From the IMG/VR virus record IMGVR_UViG_3300009537_001771, positions 1 through 25,211 of that record: a DNA stretch of 25,211 nt; one strand, written 5' to 3'. The DNA is from a virus. Positions 888-24,264 of the stretch are shown piece after piece. A model generated the notes under the pieces. It did no database searches. It was not told the DNA's origin and worked only from the letters and a program-made list of their open reading frames with translations. Position numbers and translations under genes: made by a program. The first letter of the stretch is position 1, and each line of letters starts with the position of its first letter.

Positions 888-1349
888 ATGGCAAAACGAA
901 CTATTAAACCATTACCTCCAACCGATGCTCCTTTAGAGCCAGTTTTCCACCCTGCCCCCAAAAAGTTTAAAAATAGAATGACTTTAAAGCAAAAACGCAT
1001 TATTGTTGCTTATGCCAAGACCGGTTCTAATAAAAAAGCTGCTGAACTAGCCAAGGCTTCCGCTGCTTATGTGGGTGTTGTTGTTAATAGTCCTAGGGGG
1101 CGGATTGAATTACAACCTGTTATTGATGCGATTGCTTCTCACCGCAACGCTGTTTTGTTAGATTTAAGGCGTAGAGAGTCATCATTTTTTCAAGAAGACT
1201 ATAAAACAATGTTATCTGCACTAGACATCACCACTAAAAATCATCAGCTTCTTTCTGGTGGTGCTACTGAAAATGTTGCTGTGGCAGATGTGACAGAAAA
1301 ATATAATGAGCTTATTAACGCGGTTAAAAATGGTAAAGAAATAGAATGA
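888..1349 (+). CDS. Terminase small subunit (TerS-like)
   Basis: A 153-aa protein predicted to bind the packaging site and present phage DNA to the large terminase. After a basic, proline-rich start, residues about 30-70 hold MTLKQKRIIVAYAKTGSNKK and a following Ala-rich helix, the typical TerS helix-turn-helix pattern (x-L-x-x-K-Q-x-x-F/I ... A ... A-A). The C-terminal half is helical and charged, compatible with an oligomerisation region. Its stop overlaps the start of the large terminase (ATGA), the classical TerS-TerL arrangement, so position supports the call as strongly as sequence. The ATG at 888 is preceded by AATAACTAATAAT, with no Shine-Dalgarno. The exact TerS family is not certain. 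Confidence 0.75.
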   Translation: MAKRTIKPLPPTDAPLEPVFHPAPKKFKNRMTLKQKRIIVAYAKTGSNKKAAELAKASAAYVGVVVNSPRGRIELQPVIDAIASHRNAVLLDLRRRESSFFQEDYKTMLSALDITTKNHQLLSGGATENVAVADVTEKYNELINAVKNGKEIE

Positions 1350-2785
1350 CATCATCTGAACGCAAAGTATGTATGGGCTTACTTGAACTATTTACAGTAG
1401 AAGGTGTACCTTTTAGTGAACTGATTACCGAGGGTCAATTACAAATTTTTTATGAACTAGTTTTTCGTAAAAATACTCGTGTGCAGATACTTACCCCTAC
1501 CCAGTACGGAAAATCATTTGTTGTGGCTATTGCCTGTATAGTTATTTCTTGTATTCAGAAAGAAGTGGTTGCGGTTGTTGCTCCGACCAACGACAAGGCG
1601 CGCATAATTATGCGTTATTATATTGATCACTTAGGAGATTCGCCTATTTTTTCACAACAACTAGAGAAAAATACGCGCCTTGAACGCTTACGAATGGAAG
1701 AATCCAAAGATCGTATCATTCTCCGTAATGGTGGGGGGATATTTATTGTATCGGTACAAGCGGGTAACTCTAAAAAAGGTATTGAAAGCGCGATGGGTGC
1801 TGGTGCACGCATTGTTATTGAGGATGAAAGCTGTTTGATACCTGATCCCATTGAGGCAACTGTATTTCGTATGATTGCTGGTAAAGGACCACAAGCTTTT
1901 TATTGTAAGATAGGCAATCCTTTTTATAGAAATCATTTCTTTAAGTCATGGAATGATCCGTTGTATAAAAAAATAGCTATTGATTATAAGCAGGCGATGG
2001 AGGAAGGGCGTTTTACAACAGATTTTATTGAGGAAGCACGTCTTAAACCTTATTTTGATGTGTTGTTTGCTTGCAAATTTCCTGACGCTGATAGTGTGGA
2101 TACTTCTGGTTACTCATTACTTATACCTGAAAAGATAGTAAGGGATAGGATCCGCGATAAGGTAGATCTTTTCGGAACCCTCTATCTTGGCTGTGATGTG
2201 GCCGGGGAAGGTTCTAATAAGTCGGTGGTGGTTTTGCGTGGTCGCAATGGGGCGAAAGTGTTATATGCTGAAGATAATCACGATACGATGGCTTTTGCGG
2301 GTGTAATTGCGCGTTTTGCCATACAACACAAACCTAAAAAGATATATGTTGATAAAGTTGGTATTGGCAAGCCTGTTTATGACCGCTTGCGTGAATTTCC
2401 TGAAATATCTGGTGTGATTGGGGTTATTTCTGGTGAAAAACCTGAAGATGTTGATAATTTTTTTAACAAACGCGCTGAAATGTTCTGGCGGTTACATGAT
2501 TGGTTGCCTAAGGCTGAACTAGAGGGGGATAAGTGGGTTGATTTATCTGATATTAGGTATAAAATACAATCAGATAAGAAAATAAAAATAAAAAGTAAGG
2601 ATGAAATGTTGCGGGATGGGGTGCAAAGCCCTGATATTGCTGATGCTTTATCCATGACATTTTATGATCGCGAAACAATGTTTGGCAGACAGGTAGAACA
2701 AACTGAAAGCAAATTATTCCGGGAAGCGATGAAGAGAAAAAAACAATTACAAGGGGGTGGTAAGCGTAAACTTTTATTTATATAA
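1346..2785 (+). CDS. terL: Terminase large subunit (packaging ATPase/nuclease)
   Basis: A 479-aa motor that translocates DNA into the prohead and cuts the concatemer. The N-terminal ATPase has a variant Walker A, TPTQYGKS (residues 50-57), an adenine/coupling-region stretch VAVVAPTNDKA (76-85), and Walker B RIVIEDE (155-161) ending in the catalytic Glu. The C-terminal RNase H-like nuclease shows its acidic residues in LGCDVAGEGSNKS (D284), IYVDKVGIGKPVYDRL (D336) and SPDIADALSM (D430/D433). Length is normal for the family. It starts within the TerS stop (ATGA) and its TAA shares a base with the chaperonin ATG (TAATG), so translation of all three is probably coupled. The Walker A lacks the first Gly of the textbook motif, which is common among terminases. 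Confidence 0.93.
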   Translation: MTSSERKVCMGLLELFTVEGVPFSELITEGQLQIFYELVFRKNTRVQILTPTQYGKSFVVAIACIVISCIQKEVVAVVAPTNDKARIIMRYYIDHLGDSPIFSQQLEKNTRLERLRMEESKDRIILRNGGGIFIVSVQAGNSKKGIESAMGAGARIVIEDESCLIPDPIEATVFRMIAGKGPQAFYCKIGNPFYRNHFFKSWNDPLYKKIAIDYKQAMEEGRFTTDFIEEARLKPYFDVLFACKFPDADSVDTSGYSLLIPEKIVRDRIRDKVDLFGTLYLGCDVAGEGSNKSVVVLRGRNGAKVLYAEDNHDTMAFAGVIARFAIQHKPKKIYVDKVGIGKPVYDRLREFPEISGVIGVISGEKPEDVDNFFNKRAEMFWRLHDWLPKAELEGDKWVDLSDIRYKIQSDKKIKIKSKDEMLRDGVQSPDIADALSMTFYDRETMFGRQVEQTESKLFREAMKRKKQLQGGGKRKLLFI

Positions 2786-4311
2786 TGAACAAAAAATATA
2801 ATTTAGGAAAAGAAAATCGTGAGACTATCAAATTAGTGGCTAATCAGATAGGGGGGATTATTGGTAAAACACTCGGACCGGGAGGGCGTAATTATTTGTT
2901 AAATAGTGGCATTACTAATGATGGGAAAACTATTGTTCGTAGTATTAGGTTCAAAGACGAATGTCAGGATTTAGTATCCTTAATTGTTTGTGATATTGCC
3001 GATATGGCGGATAAGGATGGGGGTGACGGCACGTCTACCGCTTTGGTGGTCGGCACTACTTTGGTGGCAGATCTTATTGATAAGGTGGAGGATCTTGATG
3101 TGCCTATAAATAGTAGTAGTTCTATGTCTGTTATAGCGATGGTAAAAAAACTTAAAGAGGAAAAAGAAATTATTCTTGATTTGCTTGAAAAGGAAGCGGT
3201 TAAAGTAGAAACCCTTGAACAGCTTGAAGATGTAGCTATTACAGCGATGGAAGATGATGTGATTGCAAAGAGGGTTGCGCGCGCCGTTTGGGAGGTGGGT
3301 CCTGATGGATTTGTAACTATGGAAGAGGGATTTGGGGGTGATGTGGAAATAGAAAATGTGCCCGGTATAAAATATGCTGTCGGGGTGGTTGCTCCTTTTC
3401 AATACACTACTAGTAAAAATGAGGCTATTTTTACTGATTCACCTATATTGGTGGCTAATCATTTTTTTACGTCGTTGTCTGAATTAAACCCCCTGCTTAA
3501 AGAATTTAATACAATGAAAAGATTTTCATCTTTTATAATCGTAGCCAAAGGTTTTGAACCACCATTTATTCGTTCGGTGCATGATTTAGCAGTGGTTTCT
3601 AATTTTAAAATATTGCTTTTAAAAACTTCTATTACGGATGATGAACTGGAAGATGTGGCATCTTTTGTGGATGCTAAGGTTATTAATACTAGTCCCCGCA
3701 TTGGGAATAAAACAGAGGATATTAAATTCCATGATTTAGGTAATAGTAAAAAAATTATAGCAGGGGAAAAGGAAACAGTTTTTATCGGTGGTCGGGGGTT
3801 AGAAAGTGCTGTGATGACCACTGCTGGTTCCGTGGTCAGGGTTACTGATCGCGTGCGGTCGTTAAAAGAATTAATGGGTGACAAAAAGGATGAAAAGCTA
3901 GAAGGGAGGATCGCGCGTTTGTCTGGGGGGATAGCTATTATTCGCTTTGATGCTAAAACACAGACGGAAAAGTATTATCTTAAACTTAAAATTGAGGATA
4001 CTAAAAATTCATGTAGGGGAGCGCTTAAATACGGGATGGTTCCTGGGGGCGGGGTAACACTTAGTAAGATAGCTGATAGTTTGGGGCAGGATGCCTTGAT
4101 GTATAAGGCGCTTAAAGAGCCTTATCTAATAATTCAACGTAATTATGGGGGGCAATTAGATATTGGGGAGGGGGTAGTTGATTCATTAAATGTGGCGCGG
4201 TCATCTATTAGTAACCCCATATCTGTTGCTAGTAAACTTATTACACAGGAGGGGATAATTGCCGATGAGGAGATGTCCATGATTGAGGAATTTAAAAACA
4301 AATTATTTTAA
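2785..4311 (+). CDS. Phage-encoded GroEL-type chaperonin (group I HSP60), divergent
   Basis: A 508-aa ATP-driven folding-chamber subunit; E. coli GroEL has 548. The equatorial ATP site is intact: LGPGGRN (30-36), TNDGKT with D46 (equivalent of D52), GGDGTSTA with D81 (D87), GGIAIIRF (381-388), IEDTKN with D405 (D398), and PGGGVTL (420-426). The C-terminal equatorial helices align (VVDSLNVARSSISNP). The apical domain is diverged: the almost invariant APGFGDRRK segment is replaced by TSITDDELED (281-290), and the C-terminal Gly-Met tail is missing. No GroES gene is visible in the window. The gene is wedged into the packaging/head operon directly after TerL, so it probably folds capsid or other virion proteins. 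Phages EL and OBP encode GroEL relatives, and EL's works without a co-chaperonin. The intact ATP residues argue for an active ATPase. Confidence 0.92.
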   Translation: MNKKYNLGKENRETIKLVANQIGGIIGKTLGPGGRNYLLNSGITNDGKTIVRSIRFKDECQDLVSLIVCDIADMADKDGGDGTSTALVVGTTLVADLIDKVEDLDVPINSSSSMSVIAMVKKLKEEKEIILDLLEKEAVKVETLEQLEDVAITAMEDDVIAKRVARAVWEVGPDGFVTMEEGFGGDVEIENVPGIKYAVGVVAPFQYTTSKNEAIFTDSPILVANHFFTSLSELNPLLKEFNTMKRFSSFIIVAKGFEPPFIRSVHDLAVVSNFKILLLKTSITDDELEDVASFVDAKVINTSPRIGNKTEDIKFHDLGNSKKIIAGEKETVFIGGRGLESAVMTTAGSVVRVTDRVRSLKELMGDKKDEKLEGRIARLSGGIAIIRFDAKTQTEKYYLKLKIEDTKNSCRGALKYGMVPGGGVTLSKIADSLGQDALMYKALKEPYLIIQRNYGGQLDIGEGVVDSLNVARSSISNPISVASKLITQEGIIADEEMSMIEEFKNKLF

Positions 4312-4314
4312 TAC

Positions 4315-4355
4315 TTATCCACAGATTGCATTGACATTATAAACTATGGTATAAT
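4315..4355 (+). promoter_or_regulatory. Extended -10 promoter with upstream DnaA-box-like element, leaderless start
   Basis: TTATCCACA (4315-4323), inside the 11-mer ACTTATCCACA, begins 3 nt after the chaperonin stop. An extended -10 TGGTATAAT (4347-4355) follows. TTGACA at 4331-4336 is only 13 bp from the -10, too close for a standard -35, so the TG extension probably compensates. The next ATG is at 4366, 10 nt after the -10, so the transcript would have at most a few bases of leader. The same 11-mer sits 34 bp upstream of the -10 in front of the portal gene. Confidence 0.6.
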
Positions 4356-4365
4356 ACACACAGAA

Positions 4366-4686
4366 ATGATAAGAAACAAAATAATTAATATTTTTATCTG
4401 GCTCATTGAAAAGGATTTGTCTACAATTCCTAGACAGGTGTTATCTGAAGAACAGGCTACGGGATTGCTTGCGCAACTATGGACTAATCCGGCTTTTCAA
4501 AAATATGTTGCCGATAGGGATGCTAGATTAGTTTATACGATGGCGGGTCCCGCTGGTAATGATCCCGAACCTAGGGACAAGCACATGATGAAATTTGGAC
4601 AACGGGTTGAAATTTTGCTTTTGGCGGCAAAAGCTAAAGCGTGTGCAATGAAAATTAATAAAGAGATTGAAGAAAGGAAAGTTTAA
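4366..4686 (+). CDS. Hypothetical 106-aa protein at the head of the capsid block
   Basis: I do not recognise this family. Residues 1-20 are rather hydrophobic (NIFIWLIEKDL). The middle has NPAFQKYVADRDARLVYT, and the C-terminal part reads MKFGQRVEILLLAAKAKACA followed by a charged helix, so the protein is mostly alpha-helical. It is not a GroES: the beta-barrel pattern and mobile loop are absent. It lies 54 nt after the chaperonin and 87 nt before the scaffold-like gene. The ATG is fixed by the extended -10 promoter ending 10 nt upstream. Placement between packaging and capsid genes suggests a head-assembly accessory role, by position only. Confidence 0.75.
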   Translation: MIRNKIINIFIWLIEKDLSTIPRQVLSEEQATGLLAQLWTNPAFQKYVADRDARLVYTMAGPAGNDPEPRDKHMMKFGQRVEILLLAAKAKACAMKINKEIEERKV

Positions 4687-4773: not shown

Positions 4774-5349
4774 ATGTTAATAACTAGTCACACTTCAACT
4801 ATGAACGAAAATGAAGAATTAAACGCAGGCGAGGGAGCGGAAGACCTCGAACTGGAAAAAAATCCAGGCGACGATCCTTTTGATTTAATAGAGGATGAAC
4901 AATTGCGGGCGGATGCTAAAAAGTTCCGTGCGATAGCTAATAGGAAGGTAAAAGTAGCGGTTGTTGAAAAACCACCGGTTGTGGTTGAAAAATCACCAAT
5001 TAAGACTGATGATTTTGTAAAAAAATCAGACCTTGCTCTTATGGCTGTTAATGGGGCTAAAGAATTGGTTTCTAATGAAGTCAAAGAACACTGGGATGAC
5101 CTTATGGAAATTCCGTTAAGTGGCTATGATAATTTGGATGCTAAATCTATTGCTAATAATATGGCTGAGAGATTAGTTATATTTAATGCGCGTAATCCGG
5201 TTGGTGAAAAGAAAGAAGATGTGTCTTATTTGACTACTACAAAGACAACAGGCACAGGATCAGGACCTTCTGTTGATAAGACAAAGACTGTTAAAAATCC
5301 CCCTAATTTTAATTTACCAACTAAACCTGATGATTGGTACAAATCTTAA
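4774..5349 (+). CDS. Scaffold-like acidic head-assembly protein
   Basis: A 191-aa very acidic, low-complexity protein directly upstream of the head genes, which is the usual place and character of a capsid scaffolding protein. The N-terminal 50 residues are rich in Glu/Asp (NENEELNAGEGAEDLELEKN), followed by a basic helix (ADAKKFRAIANRKVKVAVVE), a Pro/Val linker, and an amphipathic region around 90-140. The C-terminus is Thr/Lys-rich and ends PTKPDDWYKS. Two starts are possible: ATG 4774 or ATG 4801 (MNENEEL...). The second gives a cleaner acidic N-terminus and drops nine unremarkable residues, so it is a serious alternative. No sequence motif proves the scaffold role. Confidence 0.7.
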   Translation: MLITSHTSTMNENEELNAGEGAEDLELEKNPGDDPFDLIEDEQLRADAKKFRAIANRKVKVAVVEKPPVVVEKSPIKTDDFVKKSDLALMAVNGAKELVSNEVKEHWDDLMEIPLSGYDNLDAKSIANNMAERLVIFNARNPVGEKKEDVSYLTTTKTTGTGSGPSVDKTKTVKNPPNFNLPTKPDDWYKS

Positions 5350-5391: not shown

Positions 5392-5820
5392 ATGGCTTTT
5401 ATACCTGTAAATTACGATGACGGTAGAACAGTTTTGTTGAAGGCTAAGGCTAGTATTGCTTTTGTAAAAGGCAATGCCCTTGTGGACGATGGTGCTGGTT
5501 TTATAACCAATGCTTCATCATCGACGGCTGTTGATATTCGTTATATTGCAGCTGAAACAATTACAAGTGCCGCTGTGGATGGAACAACAATGTTAAATTG
5601 CTGGCCTGTTCGCGGTATTCGTTTTGTGGCTGATTGTGACGCCGCAGCAGCTCAAACAGACGTTGGAACTGAGGCGGATTTAGCAGCAGCAGGACAAGTA
5701 AATCCTGATGCATCAACCCACGATCTATTCTTCATTGAATCAATCGATTTGTCTGGTGGTGCGGTAGGAGTATCTACTAGAGTGTTTGGTCACTTCCTAG
5801 CTGGCGTACCTAATTCATAA
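5392..5820 (+). CDS. Small head protein, decoration/stabilisation-like
   Basis: A 142-aa Ala/Thr/Asp-rich, mainly beta protein with no charged extensions, immediately before the major capsid gene. The N-terminus MAFIPVNYDDGRTVLLKAKA leads into a compact domain (FVKGNALVDDGAGFI; IRYIAAETI; VRGIRFVADC) that resembles small capsid decoration or DUF2190-like proteins in size, composition and the 'fresh/aged value' style of strands. It lies 42 nt after the scaffold-like gene and 25 nt before the capsid gene. A weak TTGTTG-16-TATAAC promoter-like pair ends 4 nt before its ATG. Function is inferred from position and composition. Confidence 0.72.
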   Translation: MAFIPVNYDDGRTVLLKAKASIAFVKGNALVDDGAGFITNASSSTAVDIRYIAAETITSAAVDGTTMLNCWPVRGIRFVADCDAAAAQTDVGTEADLAAAGQVNPDASTHDLFFIESIDLSGGAVGVSTRVFGHFLAGVPNS

Positions 5821-5845: not shown

Positions 5846-6829
5846 ATGGCATTAACAACCCTAGATTACGCAACCCTCACAGGTAAACTGAATGAGTGGT
5901 ACAACGAATCAGCAGTAGAAAAAGTGCAATCATGGATTGGCAAGGAACTTTTTGATGTTTCTGAAACTAATTGGCAAACATACAATTACCTTGTCTTGAA
6001 TGGATTGGCTAAATTCGACAGGGTGGCAGAAGGCGCACAGCTTCCTATTGCAACATCAGTAGAAGGTGATAGTGTTTCTGCTACACAAAGACGATATGGT
6101 GGAAGGATTGGCATTACTAAGGACATGAGAATGTTTGAAAGATATGACCAAATGAAAGAACTTGTAAGTTCAGCAGTAGATTTTGCTTTTGATAGAATTG
6201 ATCAATCACAAGCAGATCTTCTTACTAATGGATTTGCAGGAACATCATATACGGATATTTACGGAACGACACAATCAAATGTGTCTCCGGACGGTGTTGT
6301 GTTTTTCTCCGCTTCACACACAAATAATCAAAACGGAACAGTTTCCAGAAATCTTATTAGAAATGCAGTAGGAACAGCAAATCCAGCGCTTGCACGCGAT
6401 GCTATTGTTACTACTCGTAAGGATGGAATGACACACAAGGATCCTAACGGGGCAAACAGACCTATTAACCTCAATACGTTGATAGTTTCTGCATCTAATG
6501 AGGACTTGGCAGAAAGAACAGTTTATTCATCAGGAGTTCAAGGAACACCTAATGTTGATCTTAACCCATTGAAAGGTAAGGTTTCTAACATTAAAGTGTG
6601 GTCACGACTTGATACAAGAGGTGATGGAACTGACACCTCGGCTTATTGGTTTATGGCAGATTCTCGAAATGTTACAAAGACATTGAAATCTCCATTTGCA
6701 CAGAAGCCTATGATGGGAGGAGCTACTCAGGTTCACGATTCATTAAACTGGGAGTATCCAATTGATAGTTACTACACTATGTTTGTTGGACAACCATATA
6801 ATGTTTTCGGATCTACAGGAGCAAATTAA
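5846..6829 (+). CDS. Major capsid protein, HK97-fold type
   Basis: A 327-aa protein expected to form the icosahedral shell. An N-terminal helical stretch (residues 1-45) is followed by the long beta/P-domain pattern with AEGAQLPIA (61-69), the conserved helix region around RIGITKDMRMFERYDQMKEL, and a spine-like helix SSAVDFAFDRIDQSQADLL. The A-domain part includes NTLIVSASNEDLAER, and the C-terminus ends in short beta strands (YYTMFVGQPYNVFG). Length fits. It follows the scaffold-like and small head genes, as usual for podoviruses. Codon use here is richer in A-ending codons (gga, aca, aga) than in the neighbouring genes, as expected of a highly expressed structural gene. Start ATG 5846 follows TTATTACTTAAC with no Shine-Dalgarno. 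Confidence 0.88.
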   Translation: MALTTLDYATLTGKLNEWYNESAVEKVQSWIGKELFDVSETNWQTYNYLVLNGLAKFDRVAEGAQLPIATSVEGDSVSATQRRYGGRIGITKDMRMFERYDQMKELVSSAVDFAFDRIDQSQADLLTNGFAGTSYTDIYGTTQSNVSPDGVVFFSASHTNNQNGTVSRNLIRNAVGTANPALARDAIVTTRKDGMTHKDPNGANRPINLNTLIVSASNEDLAERTVYSSGVQGTPNVDLNPLKGKVSNIKVWSRLDTRGDGTDTSAYWFMADSRNVTKTLKSPFAQKPMMGGATQVHDSLNWEYPIDSYYTMFVGQPYNVFGSTGAN

Positions 6830-6867: not shown

Positions 6868-7155
6868 ATGTCTATAAACTATACAAATTTGGTGGCACAA
6901 GGAAGAGCTAAAGGAATTGAGCAACCTTGGTCACCAGAGGAACTTGAGGCACTTTTAACGCTTGAACGGGAATGTCATATTTCACGTTCACTAGCTGCTG
7001 ATTATATCAGGAATGGTATTTCAACTGTTGAGGATTTTGAAAAAGCTCAAAAAGCAAAATTCACTCCTAAAACAATTGATGAGGCGGCTGCAGAAGCGGA
7101 TAAAACCCTTAAAGAAAGTGGAAAGGCTGCCATAGGTAAAAAGAAAACAAAATGA
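6868..7155 (+). CDS. Hypothetical 95-aa protein downstream of capsid
   Basis: A small helical protein of unknown family. It reads QPWSPEELEALLTLERECHI in the N-terminal half, then ADYIRNGISTVEDFEKAQKA, and ends in a lysine-rich tail (AIGKKKTK). The helix-loop-helix pattern and the Lys tail suggest nucleic-acid or protein contact. It lies 38 nt after the capsid stop, and its TGA overlaps the ATG of the next gene (ATGA), so it is translated with the secreted protein that follows. The position after capsid is where head-completion proteins are often found, but nothing specific is visible. Confidence 0.75.
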   Translation: MSINYTNLVAQGRAKGIEQPWSPEELEALLTLERECHISRSLAADYIRNGISTVEDFEKAQKAKFTPKTIDEAAAEADKTLKESGKAAIGKKKTK

Positions 7156-7736
7156 ACTACATAAAACAAAATCATCTTTCGCTTCTTATTGTCTTGTGGC
7201 TTGTGATGTCTGCTGTTTTTTCTGCATCTGCTCCGCTAAAAGATGTTCCTAATCTTGGTGCGGCGAACAGAGAATCAACAACGATTACTAATCCATTCAT
7301 CTTTACACAAGGCGCAACTCTTCAGGGAACAACAACAATTGTTCGTTCGCCCGACGGGTTTGTTGCTTGGAGCGGTTATGTTGTGGCAACAGGAACAGCG
7401 AAGGCAGTATTTACAAATACCGGTGCGCCGATGATGTGTGATGCTGATTCTGGATTCATTCGACCGAAAGGCACAACTTTTGCGCCTTCGATTGTTTTGG
7501 CACTAGGAACAAGTACATCTGCTACAGGACATTCTGTAAACTTAATTGCTTCAACAACCGTTGCGACAACAACAACGTCCGTTATTCCTTTTACTTACGC
7601 ACTACCGTTTGTTCTTGGAAACAACGAATCAATAGTTGGGGGTATTTCTGATTACAGCGCGGCGATAGCCTCGTCTACATTCTTTAGTAATTGGAGTATA
7701 GAGTTCGGAGTCCACTGTTGGACAATGGGTTCGTAA
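7152..7736 (+). CDS. Secreted beta-rich protein with signal peptide
   Basis: A 194-aa protein with a clear Sec-type signal: a short polar start (MNYIKQNH), hydrophobic core LSLLIVLWLVMSAVF (9-23), and small residues SASA (24-27) suited to signal peptidase. A Pro at 28 disfavours cleavage right after A27, so the site may lie one or two residues earlier. The mature part is Thr/Ser-rich and beta-like (ATLQGTTTIVRSPDG; ASTTVATTTTSVIPF) with two Cys (in MMCDAD and VHCWTM) that could form a disulfide outside the membrane. A signal peptide is odd in a virion gene block. It may be a host-surface or exclusion protein, or a protein added to virions outside the cytoplasm. No known family recognised. Confidence 0.78.
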   Translation: MNYIKQNHLSLLIVLWLVMSAVFSASAPLKDVPNLGAANRESTTITNPFIFTQGATLQGTTTIVRSPDGFVAWSGYVVATGTAKAVFTNTGAPMMCDADSGFIRPKGTTFAPSIVLALGTSTSATGHSVNLIASTTVATTTTSVIPFTYALPFVLGNNESIVGGISDYSAAIASSTFFSNWSIEFGVHCWTMGS

Positions 7737-15349: not shown

Positions 15350-16048
15350 ATGAGTGAATATCAAAAACAAAAAGTAAAAGTGAAATGTCTAAATTGTTTA
15401 AAAACAAGAGTTATTTCTTTAGGACAGCTACAGAGAAAGACATTAAAGAATGATTTACGTTGTAGAGGTTGTCTTAAAATGGGGATAAAAATGTCTACAC
15501 AGGCTAAGATAAAGATGTCTATCAGTAAAAAGAAACTAGTTTTGAGTGGTTGGCTTCCAGATTATGCTAAAAAATATAAGGGTGGGCATAGTTCTCTACC
15601 AAAGATTTGTAACTTCTGTTTAAAAGAATTTTACAGCCCATACAGTACCACCAAATCATGTTCAAAAGAATGTTCTAATAGAAAAAGAGTGTCTGATGGC
15701 ACACATCATTTTTGGAAGGGCGGTGTTACTCCACTAAATTTTGTTATTCGTTCAATGGTTGAATATGAAAGATGGAAACAGGAAGTGATAGGCAAGCACG
15801 GTTTTGTTTGTGAAGAATGTCACGTTGCTAGTATTTATGGACATTTTATATTAATGCACGTTGATCACATAGTTCCATTATCTTTTATTATAAAGAAATA
15901 CCAAATAAAAAATAAGGAAGATGCAAGGAATTGTGTAGAGTTGTGGGATATTAATAATGGAAGAATTTTATGTAAACCATGTCATGAAAAAACAGATACT
16001 TATATGTCAAAGGCAAATAATTATGAACAATTAACAAAAACAATATGA
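15350..16048 (+). CDS. Free-standing HNH (homing-type) endonuclease
   Basis: A 232-aa nuclease. The C-terminal HNH module has CEEC (154-157), LMHVDHIVPL with H170 and catalytic H173, ELWDINNGRILC with Asn202/203, and CKPCH with C208/C211 and H212. Two further CxxC pairs lie at 13/16 and 38/41, and another ribbon at C87/C90 with C104/C108, so the protein should bind several zinc ions. The stretch STQAKIKMSISKKK resembles a NUMOD3-type DNA-binding motif. It is wedged between two putative ejection-protein genes (6 nt from the first; ATGA overlap with the next), the usual behaviour of selfish HNH genes. Its codon use is plainer and less GGG-rich than its neighbours, in line with separate origin. 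Confidence 0.9.
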   Translation: MSEYQKQKVKVKCLNCLKTRVISLGQLQRKTLKNDLRCRGCLKMGIKMSTQAKIKMSISKKKLVLSGWLPDYAKKYKGGHSSLPKICNFCLKEFYSPYSTTKSCSKECSNRKRVSDGTHHFWKGGVTPLNFVIRSMVEYERWKQEVIGKHGFVCEECHVASIYGHFILMHVDHIVPLSFIIKKYQIKNKEDARNCVELWDINNGRILCKPCHEKTDTYMSKANNYEQLTKTI

Positions 16049-22233: not shown

Positions 22234-24264
22234 ATGAACCCAAACGAAACCAAAATGTCCCCAGTGTTTGTACCAACTCCGGAACAACTAAAAAGTCGTG
22301 AAAGGGTGTATAAACACATTGAAACAATGAGAGAGTTAAAAGATGAGGCAAAGCCCCACTTTCAAACAGGACCAAACGGGCCACGATCTTTTAATACCTA
22401 TATAGATGATAGTGAGATGATTCTTAATGGTTATACTGTTGCTAGGGGGGAAAACGGCAAGGAGGAATGGCAATCTAACCTAACAGATAACATTACTCTT
22501 GCTAAGATGAGGGCAATTGCGGCGGGGGTAGGGCTTAAAACCCCGGAAATGATCTTTACTTCAGTGAATAAAAATGGGATGAGATCTGCTGCGCGTGCAG
22601 ACATCTTTAAAAATATTGTCAAGGAATCATATAATAATGAAAATCCCGTATTGAGTACCTTTTTAGAGTTGTGGCACATGATGGCTCACGGGGTTACTTT
22701 TGAATATGAAGGATATAAAACTGGGGGCGCAATGCAAGAAGTAATAGAGTCTTTTGATTCTATTACTGGGAAGGTAAACACAAAAAAAATATATCGTAAA
22801 ATGAACGGGAAACCTTTTTCTGTTTTAATAAATCCTCAAGAGTTTTTTTGGTGGACGTTTAATGTAAGAGATGTGCAAGACCAGCCGCGTCTAGCGTGGG
22901 TACAACATTTTACTAAAAGAGAACTAGAAATGGAGTTTTCCCGATACCCAAACTATAAATATATAAAAGATAAGGCTGAAGCTGGACGAATCTCCAAATT
23001 AACAGATTCTACTTATTTTTCTAACTGGAAAGACCGTGTTCAAGATGATGATGACTATGAAGTAATTAGATATTATTCAAAAGCGGACGAGGGACAAGAT
23101 GGTGGGTATGGATATGAAATATGGATAAACGGTGTGCCACTACTTCAGGCGCCTCTTTTATGGGGGGATAAGGAAAAGAAATATCCTTTTGTAAAACAAA
23201 TTTCTAACCCATTTGCCAACACCAATTTTTTTGTCGGCATGTCTTTCCCCGGAATATTAGAATCATATCAAGATGGTAAAAACACTGTTCTAAATACCTT
23301 AATAGATAAACTTTACCGCGCAGTAGATCCGCTTAAACTAGTTGGGCTTCAAAACAGAGATTTGTTTGATATTGAAACAGAGGTTGTATCACAAGATAAT
23401 ACTATTTATGTGCCAGATATTAATGCTGTAAAATTCCTAGAACATCCAAGTATTAATGCTGGTGAATTACAAATGCTTGCTATTTTAGATCGTGGCATAG
23501 AATCCGAATCAATTGATAAATCCCAGCAAGGAATAAGTGGCAACACACAAAAAACAGCTACCCAAGTACAAACAGAAGATGCTCGTGCTAGAGAAATTAA
23601 GGGTTCACTTTTTATGTTTTTGGAAGATTTGTGGTTACAGAAAATAAGACTACGCGCCGAGGTTATTCTTTCTCATTTTTTGAAAGATAAGGCGGCGCAA
23701 GAAAGCATTAAAGACAAAATCATTACAATAAAAGATTATTCTTTTGGAGATGGATCTAGGGGGATACTTGATATTTACATTGCAAAAAACAAACAAGATC
23801 GTCTGTCACAGCAAGAAATTGAGGCCAGGGAACAGGCAATGGAGGAACAAAATATTGCCTATAAACTTATTTCTATAGATGTGGATTATCTTAACGATTG
23901 GGAATATGATTTTAAAATTGTTCCGAAAGCATTTGAAAAAGAAGATTTGGAGTTACAAGGACAAGAATTAATGAAAGAAATACAACAGGTAACAACATTA
24001 TTTCCAGAATTTTTTATTGCCAATAAAGACAAGTATCTCAAAGAAGTGCTAGAATCATACGGAAAACATCCTGACGAATATGCGCCACCTGCGGAGTTGC
24101 CACAGGATAATTCAAAGGATGTTAAATTGTCTGAAAGCCTATCTTACAAAGATGCTCCGGAAGATATTAAAAGACAGATAGAAGAACAGGCTGGATTAAA
24201 ACCATCTACATTACCACCACCCGCACCAGAAAAACCGAAAACTAATATTTTGGGACTAAAATGA
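22234..24264 (+). CDS. Portal protein, P22-like podovirus type
   Basis: A 676-aa ring-forming protein through which DNA is packaged and ejected. The N-terminal helical region includes RSFNTYIDDSEMILNGY and EWQSNLTDNITLAKMRAIAA; the middle has INPQEFFWWTFNVRDVQDQP and VIRYYSKADEG, a wing-like beta section (YGYEIWINGVPLLQAPLLWG), then the stem/clip region with GKNTVLNTLIDKLYRAVDPL. The segment KTATQVQTEDARAREIKGSL followed by FMFLEDLWLQKIRLRAEVIL is characteristic of podoviral portals. The C-terminus is helical, Pro-rich and Gln/Glu-rich. The leaderless-type promoter fixes ATG 22234 over the internal ATG at 22255. A portal so far from the terminase is unusual: it normally lies just after TerL. 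Confidence 0.85.
   Translation: MNPNETKMSPVFVPTPEQLKSRERVYKHIETMRELKDEAKPHFQTGPNGPRSFNTYIDDSEMILNGYTVARGENGKEEWQSNLTDNITLAKMRAIAAGVGLKTPEMIFTSVNKNGMRSAARADIFKNIVKESYNNENPVLSTFLELWHMMAHGVTFEYEGYKTGGAMQEVIESFDSITGKVNTKKIYRKMNGKPFSVLINPQEFFWWTFNVRDVQDQPRLAWVQHFTKRELEMEFSRYPNYKYIKDKAEAGRISKLTDSTYFSNWKDRVQDDDDYEVIRYYSKADEGQDGGYGYEIWINGVPLLQAPLLWGDKEKKYPFVKQISNPFANTNFFVGMSFPGILESYQDGKNTVLNTLIDKLYRAVDPLKLVGLQNRDLFDIETEVVSQDNTIYVPDINAVKFLEHPSINAGELQMLAILDRGIESESIDKSQQGISGNTQKTATQVQTEDARAREIKGSLFMFLEDLWLQKIRLRAEVILSHFLKDKAAQESIKDKIITIKDYSFGDGSRGILDIYIAKNKQDRLSQQEIEAREQAMEEQNIAYKLISIDVDYLNDWEYDFKIVPKAFEKEDLELQGQELMKEIQQVTTLFPEFFIANKDKYLKEVLESYGKHPDEYAPPAELPQDNSKDVKLSESLSYKDAPEDIKRQIEEQAGLKPSTLPPPAPEKPKTNILGLK

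Follow-up and report, generated by a model that had tools for sequence, protein, structure and literature searches.

A divergent GroEL-like chaperonin encoded between terminase and head genes of a virus, at a position held by GroES in close relatives

The window analysed here is the entire linear virus record IMGVR_UViG_3300009537_001771, a 25-kb fragment of 25,211 bases. On its + strand, a probable terminase small subunit gene (888–1349), assigned by position with a weak profile match (PHROG 51, E=0.05), is followed by the gene for the terminase large subunit (TerL; 1346–2785; PHROG 2, E=3e-29) and by that for a 508-aa divergent group I, GroEL-like chaperonin (2785–4311), recognised by sequence and fold. 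The same strand then encodes p4366 (4366–4686), a small protein conserved among relatives and located immediately 3' of the chaperonin/co-chaperonin position, here called the slot; p4774 (4774–5349), an acidic protein whose position and composition make it a candidate scaffold; a candidate head decoration protein (5392–5820; PHROG 766, weak at E=0.046); and the 327-aa major capsid protein (MCP; 5846–6829; PF25209, E=7e-11). An SU10-type portal protein is encoded further along the + strand (22234–24264; PF23899, E=8e-12).

Several other features were seen in the window. No tRNA genes were found in its 25,211 bases. A perfect 12-bp inverted repeat with a T-rich tail (640–667), terminator-like or regulatory, sits in a 0.9-kb AT-rich stretch 5' of the terminase genes. 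A small ORF amid the tail-region genes (15350–16048) has an HNH-like look and may encode a homing endonuclease; a Pfam search with it gave no match. ATST repeats abound in proteins encoded in the window (7152–7736) and in two other records (L090, 731–4651; L103, 125–2065), and some of these proteins also have GLNITGGCFAxNGTC-like motifs. They resemble Patescibacteria surface proteins, which may hint at the host. A host search by two scans of genome contigs with capsid and GroEL alignments gave zero matches.

The identity of ORF 2785–4311 was assessed by profile searches and structure prediction. It matched PHROG 5725 ('chaperonin groEL') with E=2e-58, Pfam Cpn60_TCP1 (PF00118) with E=4e-18, above the cut-off, and GroELs of the PDB with E=1e-42 over residues 3–433. 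Matches to the NCBIfam GroEL models were equally clear in E-value (5e-60) yet fell far under the curated cut-offs, as one would expect of a family member that has diverged strongly. Sequence comparison placed the homology with GroEL and not with CCT or the thermosome. An AlphaFold2 monomer model, for which the input was ten sequences (the window's and nine relatives), had a pLDDT of 83 and a pTM of 0.77 and predicted an equatorial/intermediate/apical fold, for which the best PDB fold matches were group I chaperonins only (TM up to 0.80). These results establish the product of ORF 2785–4311 as a true group I chaperonin, albeit one that has diverged very far.

At residue level, the chaperonin combines a conserved ATP site with altered apical and equatorial surfaces. 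By alignment, D46, D81 and D405 (codons at 2920–2922, 3025–3027 and 3997–3999, + strand) correspond to D52, D87 and D398 of E. coli GroEL, and equivalents of these three are present in 20/20 members of the lineage; window D466 aligns with E. coli D495. At the substrate/GroES surface, helices are predicted at the positions of GroEL helix H (residues 231–244; 3475–3516, +) and helix I (residues 259–272; 3559–3600, +). The GroES/substrate positions 234, 237, 259, 263 and 264 are N, L, I, H and D in the window, such that in helix H L234 is replaced by N with L237 unchanged, and in helix I V263/V264 are replaced by H/D. Across the lineage 2–4 of these five GroES sites are hydrophobic, versus 4–5 in GroELs with a partner GroES, a reading that is approximate since the apical residues were aligned at ~25% identity. 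The APGFGDRRK segment and the Gly-Met tail are typical of group I chaperonins without being universal. In the window the former is replaced by LKTSITDDE, in a stretch ~4 residues shorter (3619–3648, +), and the latter by a predicted C-terminal helix (residues 499–507; 4279–4305, +). The apical domain is of ordinary length (191 aa versus 186 in E. coli); a large insert is absent, which rules out a built-in lid of the group II (thermosome/CCT) style. The chaperonin gene adjoins TerL directly: TerL ends in TAA at 2783–2785 and the chaperonin begins with ATG at 2785–2787, giving a TAATG (2783–2787, +) in which stop and start have one base in common. Comparable overlaps between TerL and the slot gene occur in L019 and L042, where the latter encodes GroEL, and in L087, where it encodes GroES. 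It is possible that the overlap couples translation of TerL and the chaperonin. A sequence-only reading of this DNA had listed the three ATP-site aspartates, the loss of APGFGDRRK and of the Gly-Met tail, and the start inside the TerL stop codon, all of which are borne out; its description of the chaperonin as 'fused' is not, as TerL and the chaperonin are two separate ORFs.

A further change lies in the equatorial domain, where ~25 residues are deleted (site at 4141–4182, +), with E461, S463 and V464 absent. The interval equivalent to E. coli 455–495 spans 14 residues in the window versus 39 in E. coli, and the preceding interval (414–455), which contains the E434 region, is shortened to 29 residues versus 40. 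In GroEL, E434, E461, S463 and V464, all of which fall in the stretches missing here, make contacts between the rings. The 455–495 interval is 14–15 residues long in 20/20 lineage members and 39 in the GroELs of E. coli and of five further bacteria; in eight phage GroELs accompanied by a GroES gene it is 33–52. Partial shortening in the crAss-like phages cr108 (17 residues) and phi14:2 (27) indicates that shortening of this segment is not confined to the slot lineage. Values of dN/dS between GroELs were saturated and so were left aside. In two records the GroEL frame is broken, by a frameshift in L042 (6318–7794) and across several frames in L206 (2575–4139); either decay or sequencing error could account for each.

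GroES was not found in the 25.2-kb window record by Pfam or family-profile searches. The same was true of the records carrying slot-lineage GroELs (Pfam for all, the family profile for most), and conversely no GroEL was found in the records of GroES-carrying relatives. These absence calls cover linear records of about 4–44 kb, most of which are incomplete, so GroES could still be encoded at a distance. The GroES HMM detected GroES beside GroEL in the unrelated phages L211, L213, L215 and L217, so the negative result is not due to insensitivity. The GroES-like slot proteins themselves scored 28.9–62.4 bits against a leave-one-out profile, with best shuffles at ≤11.3 bits, and most exceed the Pfam Cpn10 cut-off. 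The weakest, from L024, has a predicted fold that matches Cpn10 and T4 gp31 (1g31), in a model with a low-confidence stretch at 20–40. Docking of GroES into canonical GroEL is through its mobile loop, and the slot proteins have a GI(I/V)(V/L)-like motif at the position of this loop, which would fit use of host GroEL. Where the relatives examined have a chaperonin component at the slot or beside TerL, it is GroEL or GroES, never both.

Relatives were retrieved via TerL, capsid, tail-module and GroEL-profile queries; the window GroEL alone, used as a single-protein query against viral contigs, brought up none. The gene order common to them is TerL-[slot]-p4366-p4774-decoration-capsid. GroEL occupies the slot in the window, L019, L021/L022, L042, L046, L079, L080, L197–L200 and others, and a GroES-like protein in L020, L023, L024/L025, L083/L084/L088, L087, L150, L151 and L155; in L013 and L090, GroES is likewise directly 3' of TerL, but p4366 is located elsewhere. 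Relatives with 80–83% identical capsid proteins can differ in the half of the chaperonin encoded at this one position, an example being L020, with a capsid 80–81% identical and GroES at the place of the window's GroEL. When capsids were clustered (<95% identity between clusters), 40 clusters comprised 10 with GroEL, 9 with GroES (including two TerL-adjacent cases), 21 with neither and none with both. Most of the 21 phages with neither have a portal gene between TerL and p4366. The 13-member capsid clade around the window (support 100/99) contains eight GroEL and five GroES carriers. Unrelated TerL types precede the slot in the window, L019, L021, L020, L080 and L023, and since they stand before one chaperonin–capsid block, modular exchange of TerL seems likely. 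In some records the TerL gene is itself interrupted in frame by intein-like elements: that of L024 (367–3762) contains two LAGLIDADG stretches and Hint domains, L025 has a near-identical ORF (1196–4591), and that of L012 (6246–8612) has a single Hint element.

Phylogenies of the chaperonin and capsid proteins gave conflicting histories. GroELs encoded at the slot formed one clade (100/99) in the chaperonin tree, apart from the EL/AR9 branch and from the six bacterial GroELs sampled. L012, L015, L016 and L017, whose GroEL is upstream of TerL, join this clade (94/90), the GroEL of MW202497 joins the lineage weakly (85/96), and the chaperonins of a TM7 phage and of Mx1 form long unplaced branches. 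MT835992.1 (L003), labelled 'Bacteriophage sp.' and among the strongest apparent phage hits, was ruled out as a phage: its contig, with gyrA, gyrB and gltB, is a piece of a bacterial chromosome, and its GroEL was entered as a bacterial GroEL only. With groups picked after viewing the trees, the GroEL data reject the window, L019 and L021 as a clade (p-AU 0.0002), while the capsid data reject both L019, L021 and L046 as a clade (p 1e-77) and a single clade of all GroEL carriers (p 1e-6). On the capsid tree the GroEL/GroES label changes at least 6 times. There L020, a GroES carrier, groups (99/97) with three GroEL carriers, namely the window, L019 and L021, and falls as their sister; nesting of L020 inside the GroEL carriers is unsupported, as a sister placement fits equally (p-AU 0.40). 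The discordance between capsid and chaperonin trees, the label changes and the unrelated TerLs indicate that the slot is conserved and its content exchanged. The conflict between trees also weakens a strict pairing of one chaperonin with one capsid. As for the wider claims of the sequence-only reading, the absence of GroES holds within the 25.2-kb linear fragment, the slot clade agrees with the proposal that this protein belongs to a branch of its own among viral group I chaperonins, and placement in the head operon is conserved in relatives, some of which have GroES there.

Taken together, these data suggest, with a probability of roughly 0.5, that the window specifies a group I chaperonin that belongs to the phage, is driven by ATP, is probably single-ring and lid-independent, and serves head proteins. 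Such a chaperonin would be made from the packaging/head operon together with the packaging proteins. It would probably assemble as a single heptameric ring, because the ring–ring contact segment of its equatorial domain is deleted, although the segment alone does not decide ring number, since the AR9 chaperonin is a single ring yet keeps it. Apical helices H and I would bind non-native head proteins, most likely the MCP, and ATP turnover would release the client with no need for a GroES lid. In close relatives, phage GroES at the equivalent map position would follow the T4 gp31 strategy and act on host GroEL, and the window GroEL would fill the role of that GroES. The head-assembly role is suggested by the slot position together with the GroES alternative, as with T4 gp31.

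Two other explanations retain some weight, although we consider each of them unlikely. One is that this is an ordinary-type GroEL that borrows the host GroES as its lid, the phage supplying a barrel because the host's is limiting or unsuitable. The predicted three-domain fold with helices H and I is compatible with this. Should the host be one of the CPR bacteria, these are reported to have kept both GroEL and GroES (PMC12641178), and T4 provides a precedent for a phage that swaps one component and takes the partner from the host (PMC3012670). Against it, the docking hydrophobics are unconserved, with H/D at V263/V264 and 2–4 of five kept in the lineage, whereas phage GroELs with their own GroES keep 4–5. 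The other supposes that the client is not the capsid protein but TerL, the portal, a tail protein or an endolysin, with the adjacency to TerL setting only the timing of expression. The endolysin gp188 is bound by the EL chaperonin, and an endolysin also served as test substrate for that of AR9 (PMC7185714, PMC9598537); the departure of the chaperonin tree from the capsid tree also favours such a client. However, the unrelated TerL types that precede the slot speak against TerL as a fixed client, the p4366-p4774-decoration-MCP block is constant downstream, and GroEL is replaced by GroES, whose best-known phage client is a capsid protein (PMC3012670).

Much less probable is that the protein joins or poisons host GroEL rings, as a mixed-ring partner or decoy, and does not fold phage proteins. 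Its GroEL homology would allow this, and a protein without the inter-ring segment might cap a host ring or perturb it; but at ~25% identity to bacterial GroEL co-assembly is unlikely, and retention of ATP-site residues even in very diverged members suggests a working ATPase of their own. Least credible, and largely refuted, is an ordinary host groEL acquired recently and without special role. Vibrio phages 2.275.O and 207E48.1 do have chaperonins that group with E. coli GroEL, whereas the slot lineage branches off deeply and by itself (100/99, in a tree without Patescibacteria GroEL), with deletions common to its members and a conserved map position.

A broader version of the preferred single-ring, lid-independent chaperonin reading is that the slot switches between lid and barrel, that the barrel is obligately single-ring and lid-independent through loss of the segment, and that the two are interchangeable for the same capsid; we hold this tentatively, as somewhat less probable than the narrower proposal. 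If it is true, lid and barrel would be interchangeable ways to customise the folding of one capsid. Cells use the two parts of this machine together; these viruses seem to satisfy a single folding requirement with one part or the other. The matched pairs at one position offer a test of whether a capsid needs a lid, a barrel or cage volume, and the ~500-residue chaperonins that lack the inter-ring contact segment offer a clean test of single-ring function. The inter-ring deletion, the unconserved docking residues and the GroES-carrying relatives did not figure in the sequence-only reading, and they matter more than the features it listed. In a partial literature search we found no report of GroEL/GroES alternation at one locus, nor of the 455–495 inter-ring deletion.

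Marine and soil datasets commonly contain viral chaperonins (PMC5332604, PMC8390657). Phages encode GroES only, both halves or, more rarely, GroEL only, according to a passage in PMC7185714 that cites Marine et al. 2017. The closest functional comparison is with EL gp146, OBP gp246 and AR9 gp228, which, like the window protein, are divergent and GroEL-like with no adjacent GroES gene known. The EL chaperonin, to which GroES does not bind, comes apart into single rings (PMC7185714), and those of OBP and AR9 are single rings without a co-chaperonin (PMC9598537). All three are reported to be active without one (PMC7185714, PMC9598537, PMC5934643), a property with which the lack of a GroES gene in the window and in the records of its GroEL lineage is consistent. 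By contrast with the window, where TerL is adjacent, TerL and capsid genes are not annotated beside EL/OBP/AR9-type chaperonins in the stretches viewed; the jumbo-phage proteins sampled (EL, phiKp32, AR9, BpSp and LPJP1, without OBP) fall on another branch; the equatorial segment that the window has lost is present in EL and AR9; and the chaperonins of these two were tested on endolysins, not capsids.

Small phages provide further parallels. Caudoviricetes sp. ctf1B273 (MW202497, 42.9 kb circular) encodes GroEL between TerL and portal, and GroES was not detected in this circular genome. It differs from the window in keeping a 43-residue inter-ring segment and the PGFG motif, and in having other genes between TerL and groEL, which adjoin in the window. 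TM7 phage DolZOral124_53_65 (MG269973, 38.8 kb circular), with a Patescibacteria host, encodes a very divergent Cpn60 (MG269973.1, L004; 15183–16625), and no GroES was detected in the 38.8 kb, making it a second small GroEL-only phage; its Cpn60 lies outside the TerL region, unlike that of the window. Cellulophaga phi40:1, DAC19, Flavobacterium immuto and MW202828 also have a phage-encoded GroEL, but GroES is encoded with it, and their GroELs retain the inter-ring segment as well as most of the docking residues.

For head assembly, the likeness is to T4 gp31 and RB49 CocO, through which a phage modifies the chaperonin system (PMC3012670), gp31 being needed for the capsid protein of T4 to fold (PMC3012670). 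At the chaperonin position, the window's relatives have a GroES-like gene, and the predicted fold of the L024 protein matches gp31 itself (1g31). In T4 the phage contributes the lid and GroEL comes from the host, whereas the window supplies the barrel and its record is without GroES, so that the window GroEL is perhaps best read, by analogy, as the mirror image of the T4 gp31 strategy.
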